A stretch of DNA of 64,000 bases from Chloroflexota bacterium (GTDB lineage: Bacteria > Chloroflexota > Anaerolineae > Aggregatilineales > Phototrophicaceae). Positions 5,164 through 58,521 of the stretch are shown here, one piece after another. How positions within the stretch are numbered: the first letter of the stretch is position 1; every line of letters begins with the position of its first letter. The stretch covers positions 1 to 64,000 of the forward strand of contig JAPOSR010000006.1 in the NCBI GenBank assembly GCA_026709625.1. Reading direction: 5' to 3'. The translations under genes were made by a program, and so were the position numbers. The notes under the pieces are model-generated. The model made no database searches, was not told the origin of the DNA, and worked only from the letters and a program-made list of their open reading frames with translations.

Positions 5164-6363
5164 TTATAGTGAGAGTCGCGGCGCTTGCCCAAGTTTGGGT
5201 TCGTCGCAAACGATGGCGATGGGCTTGCCGCGGCAGCGAGTCATGACCAGCACACAGGAATTGCCTTCGCCACGCAGCCGCAAGCGAGCGATGAGCTCAT
5301 CGGGACTCATAGCAAAGCCGCGTTTTTTGATGGTAACGCGCCCGATGCCTCGCGCGAGCAAATGACGCCGCAGCCGCTTCAGCTGAAAAGGCAGCCACTC
5401 GCGGATTTTCCAGCAGCGCGCCCAAGGCGTCGGCGCAGGCTGGTCGACCGTCAAGTAGGCAATGCGCTCATCCAGCATAGATGCCTGGAGGTGCCGCCCC
5501 AGGGTCTGCACCAATCCAGCGCGCAGCACAGCCGGATCGGGCTCGAGCAGCCAGCCCCGCGGCGCAGTGACAGCCATGTCAGCCTCGCCATCGTCCTCCA
5601 TGTGCAGGACATCCGCTTTTCGCAGCAGGGTGGCGAAGGGCTGGACGGGGTCACGATGCAGCCACAGCAGCGCCTCGCTCAGGCGTCCCTGCACAGAAAT
5701 GAACTCCAGCGCGCCGCCATAGGCTTCGACCTGACGCAAGTCGAGGCTCGGCGACAGCTTCACAGCGATTTCACGCGCGCGCCATTGCCGCGTCAGTGAT
5801 AGCTGCGGCAGATAAGCCTCGACATGATGGATGCGTCTGCCCCTGTCATCGCGGCGGGCGGGGTCGAAGAATATCGCATCGTAACCGCTGGGTATGCCCT
5901 GACGAATGTCGCGCACCGCGAATTGCGCTGGCAGCTGCAGCGCAGAGCTGTTGTGGCGGGCGATGGCGATGTGAACGGGGTCGATGTCCAAACCGAGCGC
6001 CTCGCGATTCGCCGCGGCAAAAGCCAGGCTGTCCGCGCCGATGCCACAACACAGATCCAGCAATCGGCTCGCTTCAAACTGGCGCGCGCGATATTGGCGT
6101 GCCAGAAGGCCGCTGGCTTGCTGCAAGCCGGCCTCGGTGAAGAGCATGCGCTCGCCATGCGCAGGGAACTTGGCGATGGCTTTTTTTCGCAGCCGCAGCA
6201 TGGTCAGCACAGTCCCAGCCTCGCGGGCTGTCAGCGATCGGCGCAGCTGGCTGAGCAAAGGCAGTGTACTGGCATCGGACAGGTCGGCATTGGCAAGCGA
6301 GACCAGGCGCTTTTGGGCGCGCTCGCTTTGCAAGAAGGCGATGTCGACCAGGCTAAGCGGCAT
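5164..6363 (-). CDS. Class I SAM-dependent methyltransferase with THUMP-like C-terminal domain
   Basis: The 399-residue protein has a helical N-terminus, then a methyltransferase domain with the SAM loop LLDLCCGIGADSLAFA (about residue 100), the acidic LDIDP that binds the ribose, and the motif FFDPARRDDRGRR in the catalytic position. DPARR is typical of a bacterial group related to trimethylguanosine synthase, whose C-terminal 80 residues (THUMP-like domain) probably bind RNA. Here that domain includes IGRVTIKKRG and a basic RLRLRG. An RNA substrate is likely but unproven. It begins 8 bases after the preceding methyltransferase-like gene, in one operon. Confidence 0.75.
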   Translation of the reverse strand: MPLSLVDIAFLQSERAQKRLVSLANADLSDASTLPLLSQLRRSLTAREAGTVLTMLRLRKKAIAKFPAHGERMLFTEAGLQQASGLLARQYRARQFEASRLLDLCCGIGADSLAFAAANREALGLDIDPVHIAIARHNSSALQLPAQFAVRDIRQGIPSGYDAIFFDPARRDDRGRRIHHVEAYLPQLSLTRQWRAREIAVKLSPSLDLRQVEAYGGALEFISVQGRLSEALLWLHRDPVQPFATLLRKADVLHMEDDGEADMAVTAPRGWLLEPDPAVLRAGLVQTLGRHLQASMLDERIAYLTVDQPAPTPWARCWKIREWLPFQLKRLRRHLLARGIGRVTIKKRGFAMSPDELIARLRLRGEGNSCVLVMTRCRGKPIAIVCDEPKLGQAPRLSL

Positions 6364-6371
6364 CGAGCCGG

Positions 6372-7181
6372 CTACTCGTCAGGCGCTTCGGCAGATGCGG
6401 GGTCGATATCGATGTAGACGAGCCTTTCGCCATGCAGCGACTCCAATGTCGGATTGATGCGCAGCCCAAACACCCAGGTTTGCGCGGTTTCACGACTGAA
6501 TTTGCCGACCTTGTTCACATCGCGGACGATGCCAGCGAGCACAGCGGGCTGCATGAAACCGACCGCTTTGGGCAAGCTGCTGAATGCCAGCAGAATCGGC
6601 TGTGGAAGCGCTGCGATGGCGGCGGCGCGCCAGCTGATTGTGTCTTCGGCGGTTCGCGCCCAGGCGGGCCGATTGGGCTGCTGCTGGATCAACAGGTGCA
6701 GATAGCGACCGCGGAAGCGCTGCATATCCAGCGAGTCGGCTTCTGTGCGGGCGACGGTTTGGATGCGCTTTTGTGCTTCGCGGGTCCTGTGCGGTTTTTC
6801 GCCGCGCATCAACACGCCCAGTCCATCAAGCGCGGGCTCGACCAATATGCGCACAAAACCGCAGTCGGACAAGAACTCGCCAAGCTGTTGGCTGACCCGG
6901 CGCCGCGGCTGCACAGCGATAAAACGTCCGCCTTCCCGCAGCAGCCCGCGCGCTTCGTCCAGCAATTCGCTTGTCAGGGGCAGATCGTAAGCGACAATGG
7001 CGTCGAGGCTGTTGGGTTGGCAGGCTGTTCGTGGCAAGGGCTGCAAATCTGCGCGCGCCTCGGACAAGATAGCGGCTGAGCCACCATCCAGATCCAACAG
7101 CCGCAAGCTGGCGGAACTGGGCGGCAGCTGCTTTGCCATCGCCAAGACAAAATGCCGCCGCAGTCGCAGCGCCGTCATCAA
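6372..7181 (-). CDS. Degenerate methyltransferase-fold protein, function unknown
   Basis: The 269-residue protein starts like a class I methyltransferase (RLLDLDGGSAAILSEA, then LDAIVAYDLPLTSELLDEARGLLREGGRFI), but the SAM loop is L-D-G-G rather than G-x-G-x-G and the N-terminus is short. Its second half has no family I recognise. It includes a tryptophan-containing TISWRAAAIAAL segment and an ordered C-terminal strand region. It overlaps the 62-residue gene before it by 4 bases (7178-7181) and sits 8 bases before the THUMP-like methyltransferase, which suggests linked function and translational coupling. Loss or change of SAM binding is inferred from the motif only. Confidence 0.6.
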   Translation of the reverse strand: MMTALRLRRHFVLAMAKQLPPSSASLRLLDLDGGSAAILSEARADLQPLPRTACQPNSLDAIVAYDLPLTSELLDEARGLLREGGRFIAVQPRRRVSQQLGEFLSDCGFVRILVEPALDGLGVLMRGEKPHRTREAQKRIQTVARTEADSLDMQRFRGRYLHLLIQQQPNRPAWARTAEDTISWRAAAIAALPQPILLAFSSLPKAVGFMQPAVLAGIVRDVNKVGKFSRETAQTWVFGLRINPTLESLHGERLVYIDIDPASAEAPDE

Positions 7182-43727: not shown

Positions 43728-43736
43728 CCGCGACCC

Positions 43737-43877
43737 GCCCCCCGAAACTCCTTCCCCAAAATGAGGGGGCTACCATGCTGCGGAAGCGCAGGCAAAACTC
43801 CCCTTCCCTCGTTCTGGGGGGGGCAAGGGGCCGGGGATGGGGGCTTGGTCGCCATATCCACGCAAATAGCCACTCCC
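43737..43877. mobile_element. GGGAGTGG-family repeat, copy A (one end lost)
   Basis: About 141 bp matching the interior and right end of the complete copy at 50308. It has the shared CCCTTCCCTCGTTCTGGGG core and ends in GCCACTCCC, the terminal inverted repeat. The left terminal repeat is absent, so the element was truncated. It starts 9 bases beyond the HNH stop codon. Orientation is opposite to copies C-E. Confidence 0.75.
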
Positions 43878-43891
43878 GGCAGGCCAGTTTC

Positions 43892-45859: not shown

Positions 45860-45950
45860 GAGATTATCCTGCCTGTTCAAGATGAGAACGATTAATGTGG
45901 CACCGCAAGTGTAGCCATTTCAGCTTGGCAAGGCAATCTACTCGCCCAGC

Positions 45951-46090
45951 GGGAGTGGTGATTTTGGTGGGTACGCGTTGCTTTGCCCCCACCCCAAACA
46001 ATGAGGAAGGGGCTACCGCACTGGACCCCCTTCCCTCGTCCTGGGGGCAAGGGGCCGGGGGATGGGAAGCATCCACGCATTCACCACCCC
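45951..46090. mobile_element. GGGAGTGG-family repeat, copy B with 8-bp target duplication
   Basis: 140 bp, starting GGGAGTGGTGAT and ending TCACCACCCC (one T lost from the TIR end). It is flanked by CGCCCAGC at 45943-45950 and 46091-46098. The right duplication lies 2 bases from the stop of the M20 peptidase gene (46101). The interior shows the GAGGAAGGGG and CCCTTCCCTCGTC core. Confidence 0.8.
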
Positions 46091-47225: not shown

Positions 47226-47997
47226 GCGCAGCCTTTCCACTGGCGAACACGATCAGGCGCTCGCTTTCGTCATCATACTGACCGCCCGCATGATCGCCAT
47301 GCACAGCATCCACCTGGAAGCGGCAGTTGTCGAGCAGCAAACGCAACTCCGCCAAGAAGAAATAGCGCAATTCATGCGAAGCGATCAACCGGCGCAGGCG
47401 GCCGTCGCCATCGATCTCGTCATAAATCCAGTCGACGCGCAGCAACTGCGCCGCCCGGTCAAGCCAACTGACCGATTGCAGCATGACCAGATGCCCACTG
47501 GCGGGGTCGAGAAAATTGCGTTCCCAGGTCAACGCGTCGCTGTTTTCGTCGGCATAGGCGGGCGCGGGATTGGGCAGGTCGATAAGCAGCGCGCCACCCG
47601 CAGCCAGGCAAGAGCGCAGGTTCGCCAGCAGCGCCAATTGTGATGCCTGCGACTTGAAGTGCATCAGCGCGTTGTAACTGAGCAGAATGAGGCTGAACTG
47701 GCGGTCAAAGACGGCTGTTTGCGCGTCTGCCCGCACAAAAGACAGCCGCTCGCGCAAGTGTGGCTGGCTTTGAACTTTTTGCTCCAGCCGCTCCAGCATC
47801 CGCGGGTCCTTCTCTATGCCATGAATCGCGTGGCCTTCGTTCGCCAGGTGGATCAGCACCCGCCCCGTGCCACAGCCGACATCCAATATCGCGCCGGGAC
47901 GCTCGCGCGCCAGACGGCTGAACAAGGCGAGGTCGTCGGTCTTGTCGCCGGTCTCGGCATCATAGAAACGCGCCACGGCTGTATAAAATGCGGACAC
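47218..47997 (-). CDS. Class I SAM-dependent methyltransferase
   Basis: The 259-residue enzyme has the SAM loop ILDVGCGTGRVLIHLA, an acidic IEKDP, and FSLILLSYNALMHF. Starting with GTG 47997 it has GAGGT 5 bases upstream. Similar proteins methylate small molecules; the target is unknown. It overlaps the M20 gene by 8 bases and is likely co-transcribed with it. An inverted repeat lies upstream at 48020-48035. Confidence 0.82.
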   Translation of the reverse strand: MSAFYTAVARFYDAETGDKTDDLALFSRLARERPGAILDVGCGTGRVLIHLANEGHAIHGIEKDPRMLERLEQKVQSQPHLRERLSFVRADAQTAVFDRQFSLILLSYNALMHFKSQASQLALLANLRSCLAAGGALLIDLPNPAPAYADENSDALTWERNFLDPASGHLVMLQSVSWLDRAAQLLRVDWIYDEIDGDGRLRRLIASHELRYFFLAELRLLLDNCRFQVDAVHGDHAGGQYDDESERLIVFASGKAAHD

Positions 47998-48019
47998 CTG
48001 TTACCTCTTGGAATCACTC

Positions 48020-48035
48020 TGACACAAGCGTGTCA
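48020..48035. promoter_or_regulatory. Inverted repeat upstream of a methyltransferase gene
   Basis: TGACACAAGCGTGTCA has perfect 6-bp arms around a 4-base centre, in the 55-base gap before the methyltransferase GTG. It could be an operator; on the minus strand no T-run follows it. Confidence 0.4.
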
Positions 48036-48052
48036 TTTTCAAAGCGCCGCGG

Positions 48053-49147
48053 TTATTTTGATGATTTCTCGCGGTTGCAATTGCGGCAGAGCATCTGGCA
48101 ATTGCCTTCGACAGTCTTGCCTCCCTTAGACCAGGGCGTGATGTGGTCGGCTTCCATTTCGGCAAGGTCAAATTTGTTCTTGCAAACCGCGCAGATTCCA
48201 TCTTGCTTTCGGTAGACTCTGCGCTTCATACGGGCGTCAAAGGCGCGGAGATTTAGATGTCTTTGATCCCGCGTGAGAATATATGGATATATGCCCGATT
48301 CGCGCTGCACCTCTTCATCATCAAGCAAGTCTTCTACTTCGGCTTCAATCTCCACGGGGTCTTGCGGCTTGTCTTTGTAGGCGTTGTACAGGCTGCCCCA
48401 GTCCACGCCTTTCATTGATTTGCGATAGGTGGTAAAGGTCGATTCAATCCACTCGACTACCGAAAGAAAGTAATTCCAAAGCGGCTCAGCGTCATTCTTC
48501 TTATGATGCCTGCCCATATATTCGCGGATTCCTTCTTCATCATTTCTGCCGCTAGCCCACTTGATGACTGTTTCAAGGCACTTCTGCCGATTCACCTGTC
48601 CAAGCAAATAGCTGTTTTCAAGGTTGTCCGCGCCCTGCCTGGGCCGGCTGAAATATCGCTTGGCATCTGTAACCCAGGGTCCAGCATAAACCGCATTGCG
48701 CAATTCTTGCTTCTCTTGCACGACTCCAGCAATGTTAATCGTCTCGAACCAGTCCAGCCTTTCGCTATCCGTGCCGACACACAGATAGACTTGAAGCCCA
48801 TAGTCGAGAATCTGTTTCTGCTTGTCTTTTGGCTGATTTTGAAAATACAGCCCATTAAAGGCAAAAACTCGCGTTATATACTGCGCTATTGAGATGGTGC
48901 GCTGCTGTCCATCGATAATCTCATAAGTCCCATCGTCGCGGACTGACCAGTACATGACATTGAGCGGGAAGCCTTGCGTGACGGTATCAATGACTTTCTT
49001 GCGCTGTTTATTGTCATAGACAAAGGCGCGCTGATATGGTGGGCGAATATCAAGCTTGCCCCCATAACCGACTACGCCATCAGCCCCATCGTCATAGTAT
49101 CCCTCAACAAGGTCGCGGATGGAGATTTCGCGCAGTTCAATTTTCAT
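48053..49147 (-). CDS. DUF262-HNH nuclease, probable restriction component
   Basis: The 364-residue protein has a DUF262 (ParB-like/GmrS-type) N-terminal domain with the family motif DGQQRT at 79-84 after DIRPPYQRAFVYD, and a C-terminal HNH domain: C319-x2-C322, D334-H335, N349, C354-x2-C357. DUF262 domains occur in GmrSD and BrxU anti-phage nucleases, where this motif is used for NTP binding or hydrolysis. Here the partner domain is HNH rather than DUF1524. It overlaps the upstream EcoRI-type methyltransferase by 4 bases (ATGA), so the pair is translationally coupled. The gene pair is visibly AT-richer than its neighbours, suggesting transfer. Confidence 0.82.
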   Translation of the reverse strand: MKIELREISIRDLVEGYYDDGADGVVGYGGKLDIRPPYQRAFVYDNKQRKKVIDTVTQGFPLNVMYWSVRDDGTYEIIDGQQRTISIAQYITRVFAFNGLYFQNQPKDKQKQILDYGLQVYLCVGTDSERLDWFETINIAGVVQEKQELRNAVYAGPWVTDAKRYFSRPRQGADNLENSYLLGQVNRQKCLETVIKWASGRNDEEGIREYMGRHHKKNDAEPLWNYFLSVVEWIESTFTTYRKSMKGVDWGSLYNAYKDKPQDPVEIEAEVEDLLDDEEVQRESGIYPYILTRDQRHLNLRAFDARMKRRVYRKQDGICAVCKNKFDLAEMEADHITPWSKGGKTVEGNCQMLCRNCNREKSSK

Positions 49148-50268
49148 GGCTGAAGCCTCTTGTTGCGAATAAATATCCTGCTATAGGCGGATTGGATCAT
49201 TCGCCCTTCTTTGTTGACAAAATAATTTTTCCGCCCGTCATTGCCAACCAGATTCGCATTTTCATTTGTTTTGTTGCCGGACGAGCCAGTTTTTGTGCCA
49301 TCTTGTCGAACCTCCCAGTAATCGTTGTATTTTCTCGTGTCGGGAAAGTCGTCATGGCAACCTCTTTGAGTCGATCCAATAATCTCAAACTGCTCAGGGT
49401 TGTGCTTGTCCAAGAAAGTTATCGGAACACCCATTGCGCCAGAATAATCTCTTGGGATGTCTTTGGTCTTGGAAACCTCTATCGCATCATAATTGTCGTA
49501 CTTTGGATATTTCTCTGGAGAATATCGCTTAGTTAGAATCAGGTTCTCGTGACGCTTTTTGTGGTCAAGGTTTGTGAACCAAATACTCTGCGACCTGCCT
49601 TTCACGACCCCATCCACAATTTTGTAGGCGCTGCCCTCTTTCTTGGTCTCCTGCAATTCCTGCGCATAATCTGCGGGCAAATCAAATAGCAAATCTCTGC
49701 TCATCGGGGTAACGCCAACCCACAACTTGTTTTCCTTTATCAATGGAAAGATCTCCTTGTAGGTTATGGCATTCTTGTTGCCGATAATCAGAAATTTCTT
49801 GTCACATTCGATCAACTGCGCGACATACTCCCGAAACAGCGAAAACGGCGGATTCGTCACCACGATGTCGGCTTGCTTCAACAGCTCGATACATTCGGCG
49901 CTACGAAAATCACCGTTGCCCTCTAAATGGCGCACGCCAATGTCTTCGATGTTTGGCACGCCAGTTTCATTGTACGTACCGTCGTATTCTAACCAGATGG
50001 CTCGTTCAGAATCATTTTGACTGAACATGTCCGCTTGTTGATTCTTGTAGCAGGTTGCAATCAGTTTTTTGAGGCCGAGAGGTTCAAATTGCAATGAGAA
50101 GTAGCGAAAGAAATTACTGACTCTGGGATCATCGCAGTTGCAGTAGACAACTTTATCTCGGAAGTGATGCCAATAATGATAAAGTTCATTTTCGATATCC
50201 GACAGCTGTGTATAGAACTCGTCTTTCTTGTTGGACTTCGCTTTGTGCAGATTCCGATTCGCCGCCAT
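49144..50268 (-). CDS. EcoRI-type adenine-specific DNA methyltransferase
   Basis: The 374-residue protein matches the M.EcoRI family: the start NRNLHKAKSNKKDEFYTQL, VVYCNCDDPRVSNFF, and the catalytic NPPF at 139-142 in DIVVTNPPFSLFREYV. It would methylate adenine N6 in a specific site; the site is not predictable. ATG 50268 has GGAG 5 bases upstream. It is followed at once by the DUF262-HNH nuclease, implying a two-gene restriction-modification module. A repeat element starts 40 bases upstream. Confidence 0.88.
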   Translation of the reverse strand: MAANRNLHKAKSNKKDEFYTQLSDIENELYHYWHHFRDKVVYCNCDDPRVSNFFRYFSLQFEPLGLKKLIATCYKNQQADMFSQNDSERAIWLEYDGTYNETGVPNIEDIGVRHLEGNGDFRSAECIELLKQADIVVTNPPFSLFREYVAQLIECDKKFLIIGNKNAITYKEIFPLIKENKLWVGVTPMSRDLLFDLPADYAQELQETKKEGSAYKIVDGVVKGRSQSIWFTNLDHKKRHENLILTKRYSPEKYPKYDNYDAIEVSKTKDIPRDYSGAMGVPITFLDKHNPEQFEIIGSTQRGCHDDFPDTRKYNDYWEVRQDGTKTGSSGNKTNENANLVGNDGRKNYFVNKEGRMIQSAYSRIFIRNKRLQP

Positions 50269-50307
50269 AACTGCTCCGCTCCTGGATACTAAACGACGCG
50301 ATTCTCC

Positions 50308-50488
50308 GGGAGTGGTGAATGTATGGATATGGTAGCCAAGCCTCCCATCCCCCGTCCCCTTGCCCCCAGAACGAGGGAAGGGGAGTTTTCCCAGCGCTTG
50401 CGCAGCATGGCAGCTCCTCCCTCATTGTTGGGGGAGGGGTTTGGGGTGGGGGGCAAAGCAACGCGCATCCACAAAAATCGCCACTCCC
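50308..50488. mobile_element. GGGAGTGG-family repeat, copy C (complete, with 8-bp target duplication)
   Basis: 181 bp with terminal inverted repeats GGGAGTGGTGAAT and, at the other end, ATCGCCACTCCC. It is flanked by perfect direct repeats GATTCTCC at 50300-50307 and 50489-50496. It holds no open frame of its own. The right duplication abuts the TGA of the thiolase gene (50497). This is the reference copy of the family. Confidence 0.85.
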
Positions 50489-50496
50489 GATTCTCC

Positions 50497-54260: not shown

Positions 54261-54342
54261 CAGCCCCCTATCGCCCAGTCCCTTGCCCCAGAACGAGGGA
54301 AGGGGAGTTTTCCCCGCGCTTCCGCAGCATGTCAGCCCCTCT
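54261..54342. mobile_element. GGGAGTGG-family repeat, copy D (degenerate)
   Basis: About 80 bp of clear similarity to the middle of copy C (AGAACGAGGGAAGGGGAG plus TTCCGCAGCATG), in the same orientation. The following 50 bases are not similar, and the far end keeps only ATTCACCA next to the SDR stop at 54392. No target duplication is seen. It is a decayed or rearranged copy. Confidence 0.6.
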
Positions 54343-58376: not shown

Positions 58377-58521
58377 AAGAATGGCTATTTGCGTAGATAT
58401 GGCAACCAAGCCCCCAGAACGAGGGAAGGGGAGTTTTTCCTGCGCTTCCGCAGCATGGCAGCCCCTCTCTCTTTTTGGGGTGGGGGTAAAGCAACGCGTA
58501 TCCAGCCGATTCGCCACTCCC
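58377..58521. mobile_element. GGGAGTGG-family repeat, copy E
   Basis: About 145 bp. The right end is TCGCCACTCCC (intact terminal repeat), the left end reads AAGAATGGCTATTTGCG, a mutated terminal repeat. The interior core has AGAACGAGGGAAGGGGAG. No exact target duplication is visible. It starts 27 bases after the serA stop. Confidence 0.72.

Follow-up and report, generated by a model that had tools for sequence, protein, structure and literature searches.

In many genomes, a gene annotated as 'DUF262 domain-containing protein' lies beside an 'EcoRI family' methylase, and one such pair occurs in the window, the stretch of 64,000 nucleotides analyzed here. The pair raises the question of where its nuclease obtains its target: from its own contacts with DNA, from methylation as such, or from the methylase. 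An earlier note, made from the sequence alone, had described an EcoRI-type methyltransferase with an NPPF motif that overlaps the next gene by ATGA, and in that gene a DUF262 domain joined to an HNH nuclease with intact Cys4 and His/Asn residues. The catalytic motifs are all intact, and both descriptions were borne out, the first by coordinates, Pfam and sequence, the second by Pfam and a 52-sequence alignment (Table 1).

The methyltransferase (MT) scores 458 bits against PF13651 (cut-off 26.4) over profile positions 1-345, with NPPF present. In the nuclease (RE), residues D334, H335, N349 and N358, C319 and the DGQQR motif are invariant in the alignment, with C322 and C354 close to invariant. 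The TGA stop codon of MT and the ATG start codon of RE share the letters ATGA, an overlap that may couple their translation. Both genes are already covered by PADLOC under type II restriction-modification (R-M): model PDLC03418 (REase_II) matches RE residues 1-364 with 413 bits, and PDLC03297 (MTase_II) matches most of MT. The pair is thereby catalogued, but as plain type II and with its mechanism unstated. Our literature searches did not find the pair described, and what is new here is the reading of its mechanism.

Table 1. Coordinates of the gene pair, its motifs and the surrounding features.
Feature	Position	Strand	Basis
EcoRI-family (PF13651) adenine methyltransferase (MT), 374 aa	49144..50268	-	Pfam full-length, E=2.3e-137; PADLOC MTase_II
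NPPF catalytic motif, MT residues 139-142	49843..49854	-	Invariant in 49 homologues
v1, putative first target-recognition segment, MT residues 184-231	49576..49719	-	Hypervariable where the partner is DUF262-HNH; conserved where it is R.EcoRI
v2, putative second target-recognition segment, MT residues 297-374	49147..49380	-	Same partner-dependent variability contrast as v1
ATGA shared between the MT stop and the RE start	49144..49147	-	Sequence; commonest spacing among homologues
DUF262-HNH nuclease (RE), 364 aa	48053..49147	-	Pfam; PADLOC REase_II PDLC03418; AlphaFold model
DUF262/GmrSD_N domain, RE residues 34-154	48686..49048	-	Pfam E=1.4e-17; structural matches
DGQQR, RE residues 79-83	48899-48913	-	
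HNH nuclease domain PF01844, RE residues 319-363	48059..48193	-	Pfam E=4.3e-14; Gme HNH 4h9d; invariant residues
Insert relative to empty site	47997..50496	.	Flanks 47996 and 50497 joined in two sister species
Dispersed non-coding repeat adjoining the pair	about 50306..50490	.	Four more copies, whole or partial, in the window
Cargo or stump loci, window genus	L037, L040-L046, L048-L050, L053-L058, L060-L065		

The nuclease is partnered with an EcoRI-family methyltransferase in many phyla

We examined 80 RE loci, which were the best matches in one-genome-per-species data for a query alignment built from paired examples. An MT of PF13651 lies upstream on the same strand at 73 of them and downstream at one; five are truncated at the edge of a contig and a single locus (L131) has no MT, which leaves an MT at 74 of the 75 informative loci. 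ATGA is the commonest MT-RE spacing in this set, and the RE loci with an MT are spread over many phyla, archaea included. Elsewhere in the phylum, RE is present beside nine of nine intact MTs. The pairing is far beyond chance, and the pair is widespread rather than peculiar to the window genome. The earlier note had taken the two genes for a restriction-like pair and had asked how often the families are adjacent; they do not rarely co-occur, and these counts support its reading. A dedicated MT and nuclease gene pair, as in a type II R-M system, is what the loci hold.

The pair also occurs on plasmids and in a Flavobacterium phage. On viral contigs with an MT, RE is present in about two thirds, and some of the others keep only a stump of it. 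The first 23-41 RE codons are retained on four viral contigs with an MT but no RE (L172, L187, L205, L216), and because these codons from the RE start persist, the orphan methylases derive from complete pairs. A scan of viral contigs for R.EcoRI gave no matches. None of the loci scanned has MT and RE fused in a single frame; one candidate, the long methylase L260 from a Lactiplantibacillus plasmid, was rejected, being fused to an m5C methylase instead of RE. Two loci have unusual arrangements. L202 (4001-7269) carries two complete tandem MT genes ahead of a single RE, and in L131 (4421-8086) an m5C methyltransferase has an RE-start stump fused to it in frame; next in order come a phospholipase D-like nuclease and a full RE.

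The close partnership bears on the idea that RE alone attacks modified phage DNA in the manner of Type IV enzymes, with MT being incidental or regulatory. This idea draws on the homology of DUF262 to GmrSD and BrxU, both of which, like RE, combine a DGQQR-containing DUF262 domain and a His-Me-finger nuclease in one protein. Yet the MT partnership is near-obligate and the start codons are coupled. Moreover, known GmrSD proteins combine DUF262 with DUF1524, whereas Pfam matched DUF262 but not DUF1524 in RE, which instead has a classical HNH domain (PF01844), a dedicated MT and a smaller size. We regard Type IV-like action as very unlikely.

Variability of two methyltransferase segments depends on the nuclease partner

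MT contains two strongly variable segments, v1 and v2, while RE has no comparable variable region. We compared this pattern with that of six MTs partnered with R.EcoRI (from E. coli, two Klebsiella, Leuconostoc, Staphylococcus and Rhodococcus), which form 15 pairs that are not independent of one another. In all 15, identity is at least 0.63 in v1 and at least 0.62 in v2 at a core identity of 0.57-0.84 (means 0.79, 0.74 and 0.66 for v1, v2 and core), and the similarity of the segments is about at core level or above across three phyla. In contrast, MTs with DUF262-HNH partners have mean values of 0.30 for v1 and 0.24 for v2 at like core identity, and at a core identity of 0.6-0.7 both segments reach at least 0.6 in 0.1% of 2793 pairs.

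The segments fall into discrete types, with 27 v1 clusters and 59 v2 clusters forming 96 combinations in 127 loci. The window v2 is of the 'TQRGCHD...KTNENANL' type, which is also found in distant hosts and in the Flavobacterium phage, and a second copy of the system in the window genome carries the window-type v1 together with an EcoRI-like v2. Based on the variability and on the contrast with R.EcoRI, we infer that v1 and v2 are target-recognition segments. The relation to the EcoRI system is a mixed one: the MT family is common to both, at about 55% identity to M.EcoRI, and a single v1 or v2 of the M.EcoRI type is found in DUF262-paired MTs; however, the gene for R.EcoRI precedes that of its MT and encodes an unrelated nuclease, and the segments are locked with R.EcoRI but free with DUF262-HNH.

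If v1 and v2 were not target-recognition segments, one target might be common to all systems and the constancy of RE described below would be trivial. EcoRI, with its target GAATTC, is the only member of the MT family known to have a directly assayed target. Nevertheless, the segments are conserved at or above core level whenever the partner is R.EcoRI, in three phyla, they occur as discrete types, and M.EcoRI-like v1 and M.EcoRI-like v2 turn up separately in DUF262-paired MTs. A single shared target therefore seems to us extremely improbable.

The nuclease stays constant beside exchanged methyltransferase segments

We correlated RE identity with v1 and v2 identity given the MT core in 122 deduplicated loci, using a permutation test. 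The partial r was 0.034 for v1 (p=0.10) and 0.023 for v2 (p=0.20), neither being significant, and none of the 30-aa RE windows scanned in these loci tracks v1 or v2 strongly. As a positive control, MT residues 232-296 compared with RE given MT residues 16-178 yielded a partial r of 0.30, a value reached in 0 of 500 permutations.

Individual locus pairs show the same independence. With RE at least 85% identical there are 35 pairs, 30 of which differ in at least one segment and 20 in both. MTs with unrelated segments adjoin REs that are 98-99% identical (4-6 residue differences) at a dN/dS of 0.01-0.04. In L134 and L141, which are both tightly coupled, 99 synonymous changes separate the RE genes, compared to 7 non-synonymous ones (dN/dS 0.011), and identity is 0.24 in v1 and 0.58 in v2; six other pairs gave a dN/dS of 0.016-0.046. 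Most loci, and most of the swapped pairs, are metagenome assemblies. Decay of near-identical REs beside unlike MTs was considered and rejected, dN/dS being 0.01-0.05, and by this measure RE is under strong purifying selection. Because of these low ratios and of near-identical REs beside unlike segments, RE appears to be kept functional and unchanged while the MT segments change.

In the pair L086/L089, MT codons of about 33-165 are 94-97% identical at the DNA level and codons 167-360 are unrelated; past MT, a Fic gene (98-100%) and RE (95-100%) are again identical at these levels in nearly all 100-nt windows. The intervening Fic-domain gene is near-identical in three rumen Paludibacteraceae loci (L079, L086 and L089, at 6021-6950) while the MT segments are replaced. 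Cargo of this kind separates MT and RE in some loci, and tightly coupled pairs show an equal swap pattern.

Since the MT segments vary independently of RE, RE is probably not reading sequence itself, and these data suggest that it takes its target from MT. They disfavour an ordinary type II system, in which RE would read the target of MT through its own DNA contacts. Such a system would fit the MT family shared with EcoRI and the PADLOC label of both genes, but RE has no hypervariable region, no RE window is strongly associated with v1 or v2, REs 4-6 residues apart (dN/dS 0.01-0.04) stand beside MTs with unrelated segments, and genuine EcoRI systems have locked segments. We consider this explanation improbable.

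The main rival is context-blind methyl sensing, whereby RE would sense N6-methyladenine, or its absence, in any sequence and MT would only mark self, so that no complex would be needed. The mark would restrain or license RE, in a manner resembling the sensing of phosphorothioate by SspE. A constant RE beside varying MT segments would be accounted for in this way too; the DUF262 proteins GmrSD, BrxU and SspE are tied to modification sensing, and the DUF262 of Dazbog has been suggested to recognize methylated DNA. A general sensor of this mark would, however, be expected with any m6A MT family, whereas PF13651 is the family present at 74 of 75 informative loci, and the tracking of the MT core by RE identity (partial r 0.30) fits a specific partnership. 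The core-RE correlation and the near-exclusive partnership favour, without proving, a complex of MT with RE; a general methyl sensor is less favoured, and we judge it fairly unlikely.

A working model of a methylase-directed DUF262-HNH effector

Based on these findings, we think it rather probable that the pair is a two-gene R-M system in which MT directs a sequence-blind, NTP-gated DUF262-HNH effector. According to this model, the horizontally gained pair would be functional in restriction. MT would methylate adenine within a target set by the exchangeable v1 and v2 segments. RE, having no sequence specificity of its own, would be directed by MT to unmethylated targets, most likely through a physical MT-RE complex formed at the conserved MT core, and nucleotide binding or hydrolysis by DUF262 would act as the switch that licenses the HNH nuclease, as in SspE.

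The predicted structure of RE is compatible with such a switch. The AlphaFold model (pLDDT 85.6) has as neighbours in Foldseek BrxU (7p9k, the top match), ParB CTPase domains, the Gme HNH nuclease 4h9d and SspE, although whole-chain matches were weak for both the MT and RE models, with none at E<=0.001. A sequence search of solved structures returned no match for the MT family and only HNH domains for RE. Together, the intact DGQQR of DUF262 and the fold resemblance to BrxU and ParB suggest that RE uses NTP, and NTP gating may follow the 'recognize-hydrolyze-activate' switch of the DUF262-HNH protein SspE (PMC13251355). SspABCD-SspE likewise combines an epigenetic mark with a DUF262-HNH effector that has an NTP switch (PMC13251355), a switch that we predict for RE as well. 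In contrast to the pair, the Ssp mark is a phosphorothioate in a fixed motif and the marking genes are unrelated to MT. The neighbours in the window are M20 peptidase, SAM methyltransferase and fatty-acid oxidation genes, and no sspABCD adjoins RE as would be expected for SspE.

Type III systems offer a parallel for the division of labour in our model, in that EcoPI and EcoP15I have nearly identical Res subunits and divergent Mod TRDs (PMC8259958). Variable methylase segments beside a near-constant restriction subunit are common to both (PMC8259958), as would be an NTPase and a nuclease within the restriction subunit if RE has the predicted NTPase role. Specificity set by the methylase together with a conserved restriction subunit is found here as a sequence signature only. 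RE, on the other hand, is a 364-aa protein in which Pfam detects only GmrSD_N and HNH, with neither an SF2 helicase nor PD-(D/E)xK, and MT has two separated variable segments where Mod has one central TRD. In our model, a ParB/Srx-type NTPase and an HNH nuclease would do the work that Res assigns to its helicase and PD-(D/E)xK nuclease. Because the helicase and PD-(D/E)xK are missing, the pair may work in a Type III-like way but does not belong to that class.

If the target of the nuclease comes from the methylase, these pairs would constitute a compact methylase-guided class and not ordinary type II. We give an even chance to the broader proposition that they form a distinct and widespread R-M class, in which the DUF262-HNH nuclease is blind to sequence, gated by NTP and steered by an EcoRI-type methylase whose two half-recognition segments can be swapped independently. 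Such a class would be a compact, helicase-free counterpart of Type III, with a target that is predictable and reprogrammable via v1 and v2 and, in some lineages, an MT-RE junction that serves as a slot for defence genes. Specificity would then change by exchange of two short segments, which would explain how it can do so without killing the host, and targets would become predictable. One methylase family with two kinds of nuclease partner also provides a natural comparison for how restriction is coupled to recognition.

Insertion site of the pair and genes between its two members

The two genes have a GC content of 0.45 and 0.49 (GC3 0.55 and 0.57), compared to 0.61-0.65 (GC3 0.73-0.80) in the flanking genes, and a repeat adjoins them, in keeping with the AT-rich block beside a mobile repeat noticed earlier. 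The repeat is G-rich and intergenic; elsewhere in the window it recurs, whole or in part, at 43734-43879, 45950-46067, 54262-54341 and 58410-58487, and copies are 82-95% identical. In two sister species (G003, G007), about 77-100 bp separate the two flanking genes. Because the flanks adjoin there, the window carries an insert, and the MT-RE block is a horizontally acquired one. The system occupies the same site in three other species of the genus (G013, G026, G027), and further species have a two-component regulator in its place. The window genome contains two further copies of the system, on contigs C61 and C70. In the closest relative (L039, from G027), RE is 91% identical and is interrupted after residue 38 by an in-frame TAG (2594-2596); either the assembly is in error here or the nuclease has been silenced.

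In the window itself the pair is in its empty form, with no cargo between MT and RE. Among the 26 other scored loci of the window genus with both genes, five are likewise tightly joined, while 21 have 0.3-4 kb between MT and RE, encoding a HerA-like ATPase, an ApeA-like protein, TIR-YfbU, HNH, a PIN toxin, a NucC-like nuclease and others. Genes that appear defence-like by sequence accumulate between MT and RE in this genus. Stumps of the RE start, about 15-50 codons long, are scattered in the cargo arrays, with a maximum of six in L060. Random pseudogene debris was rejected as their origin, for RE fragments that stand alone come almost exclusively from the N-terminus, which gave 30 matches, whereas six internal segments gave none and the C-terminal segment gave 2. 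A junction from RE codon about 32 to the MT 3' end (GGCAAGCTC followed by GGCAGATTC) recurs in L040 (4918), L045 (about 3288), L050 (2380) and L057 (5866), which suggests tandem duplication of the interval from MT end to RE start at a short shared sequence.
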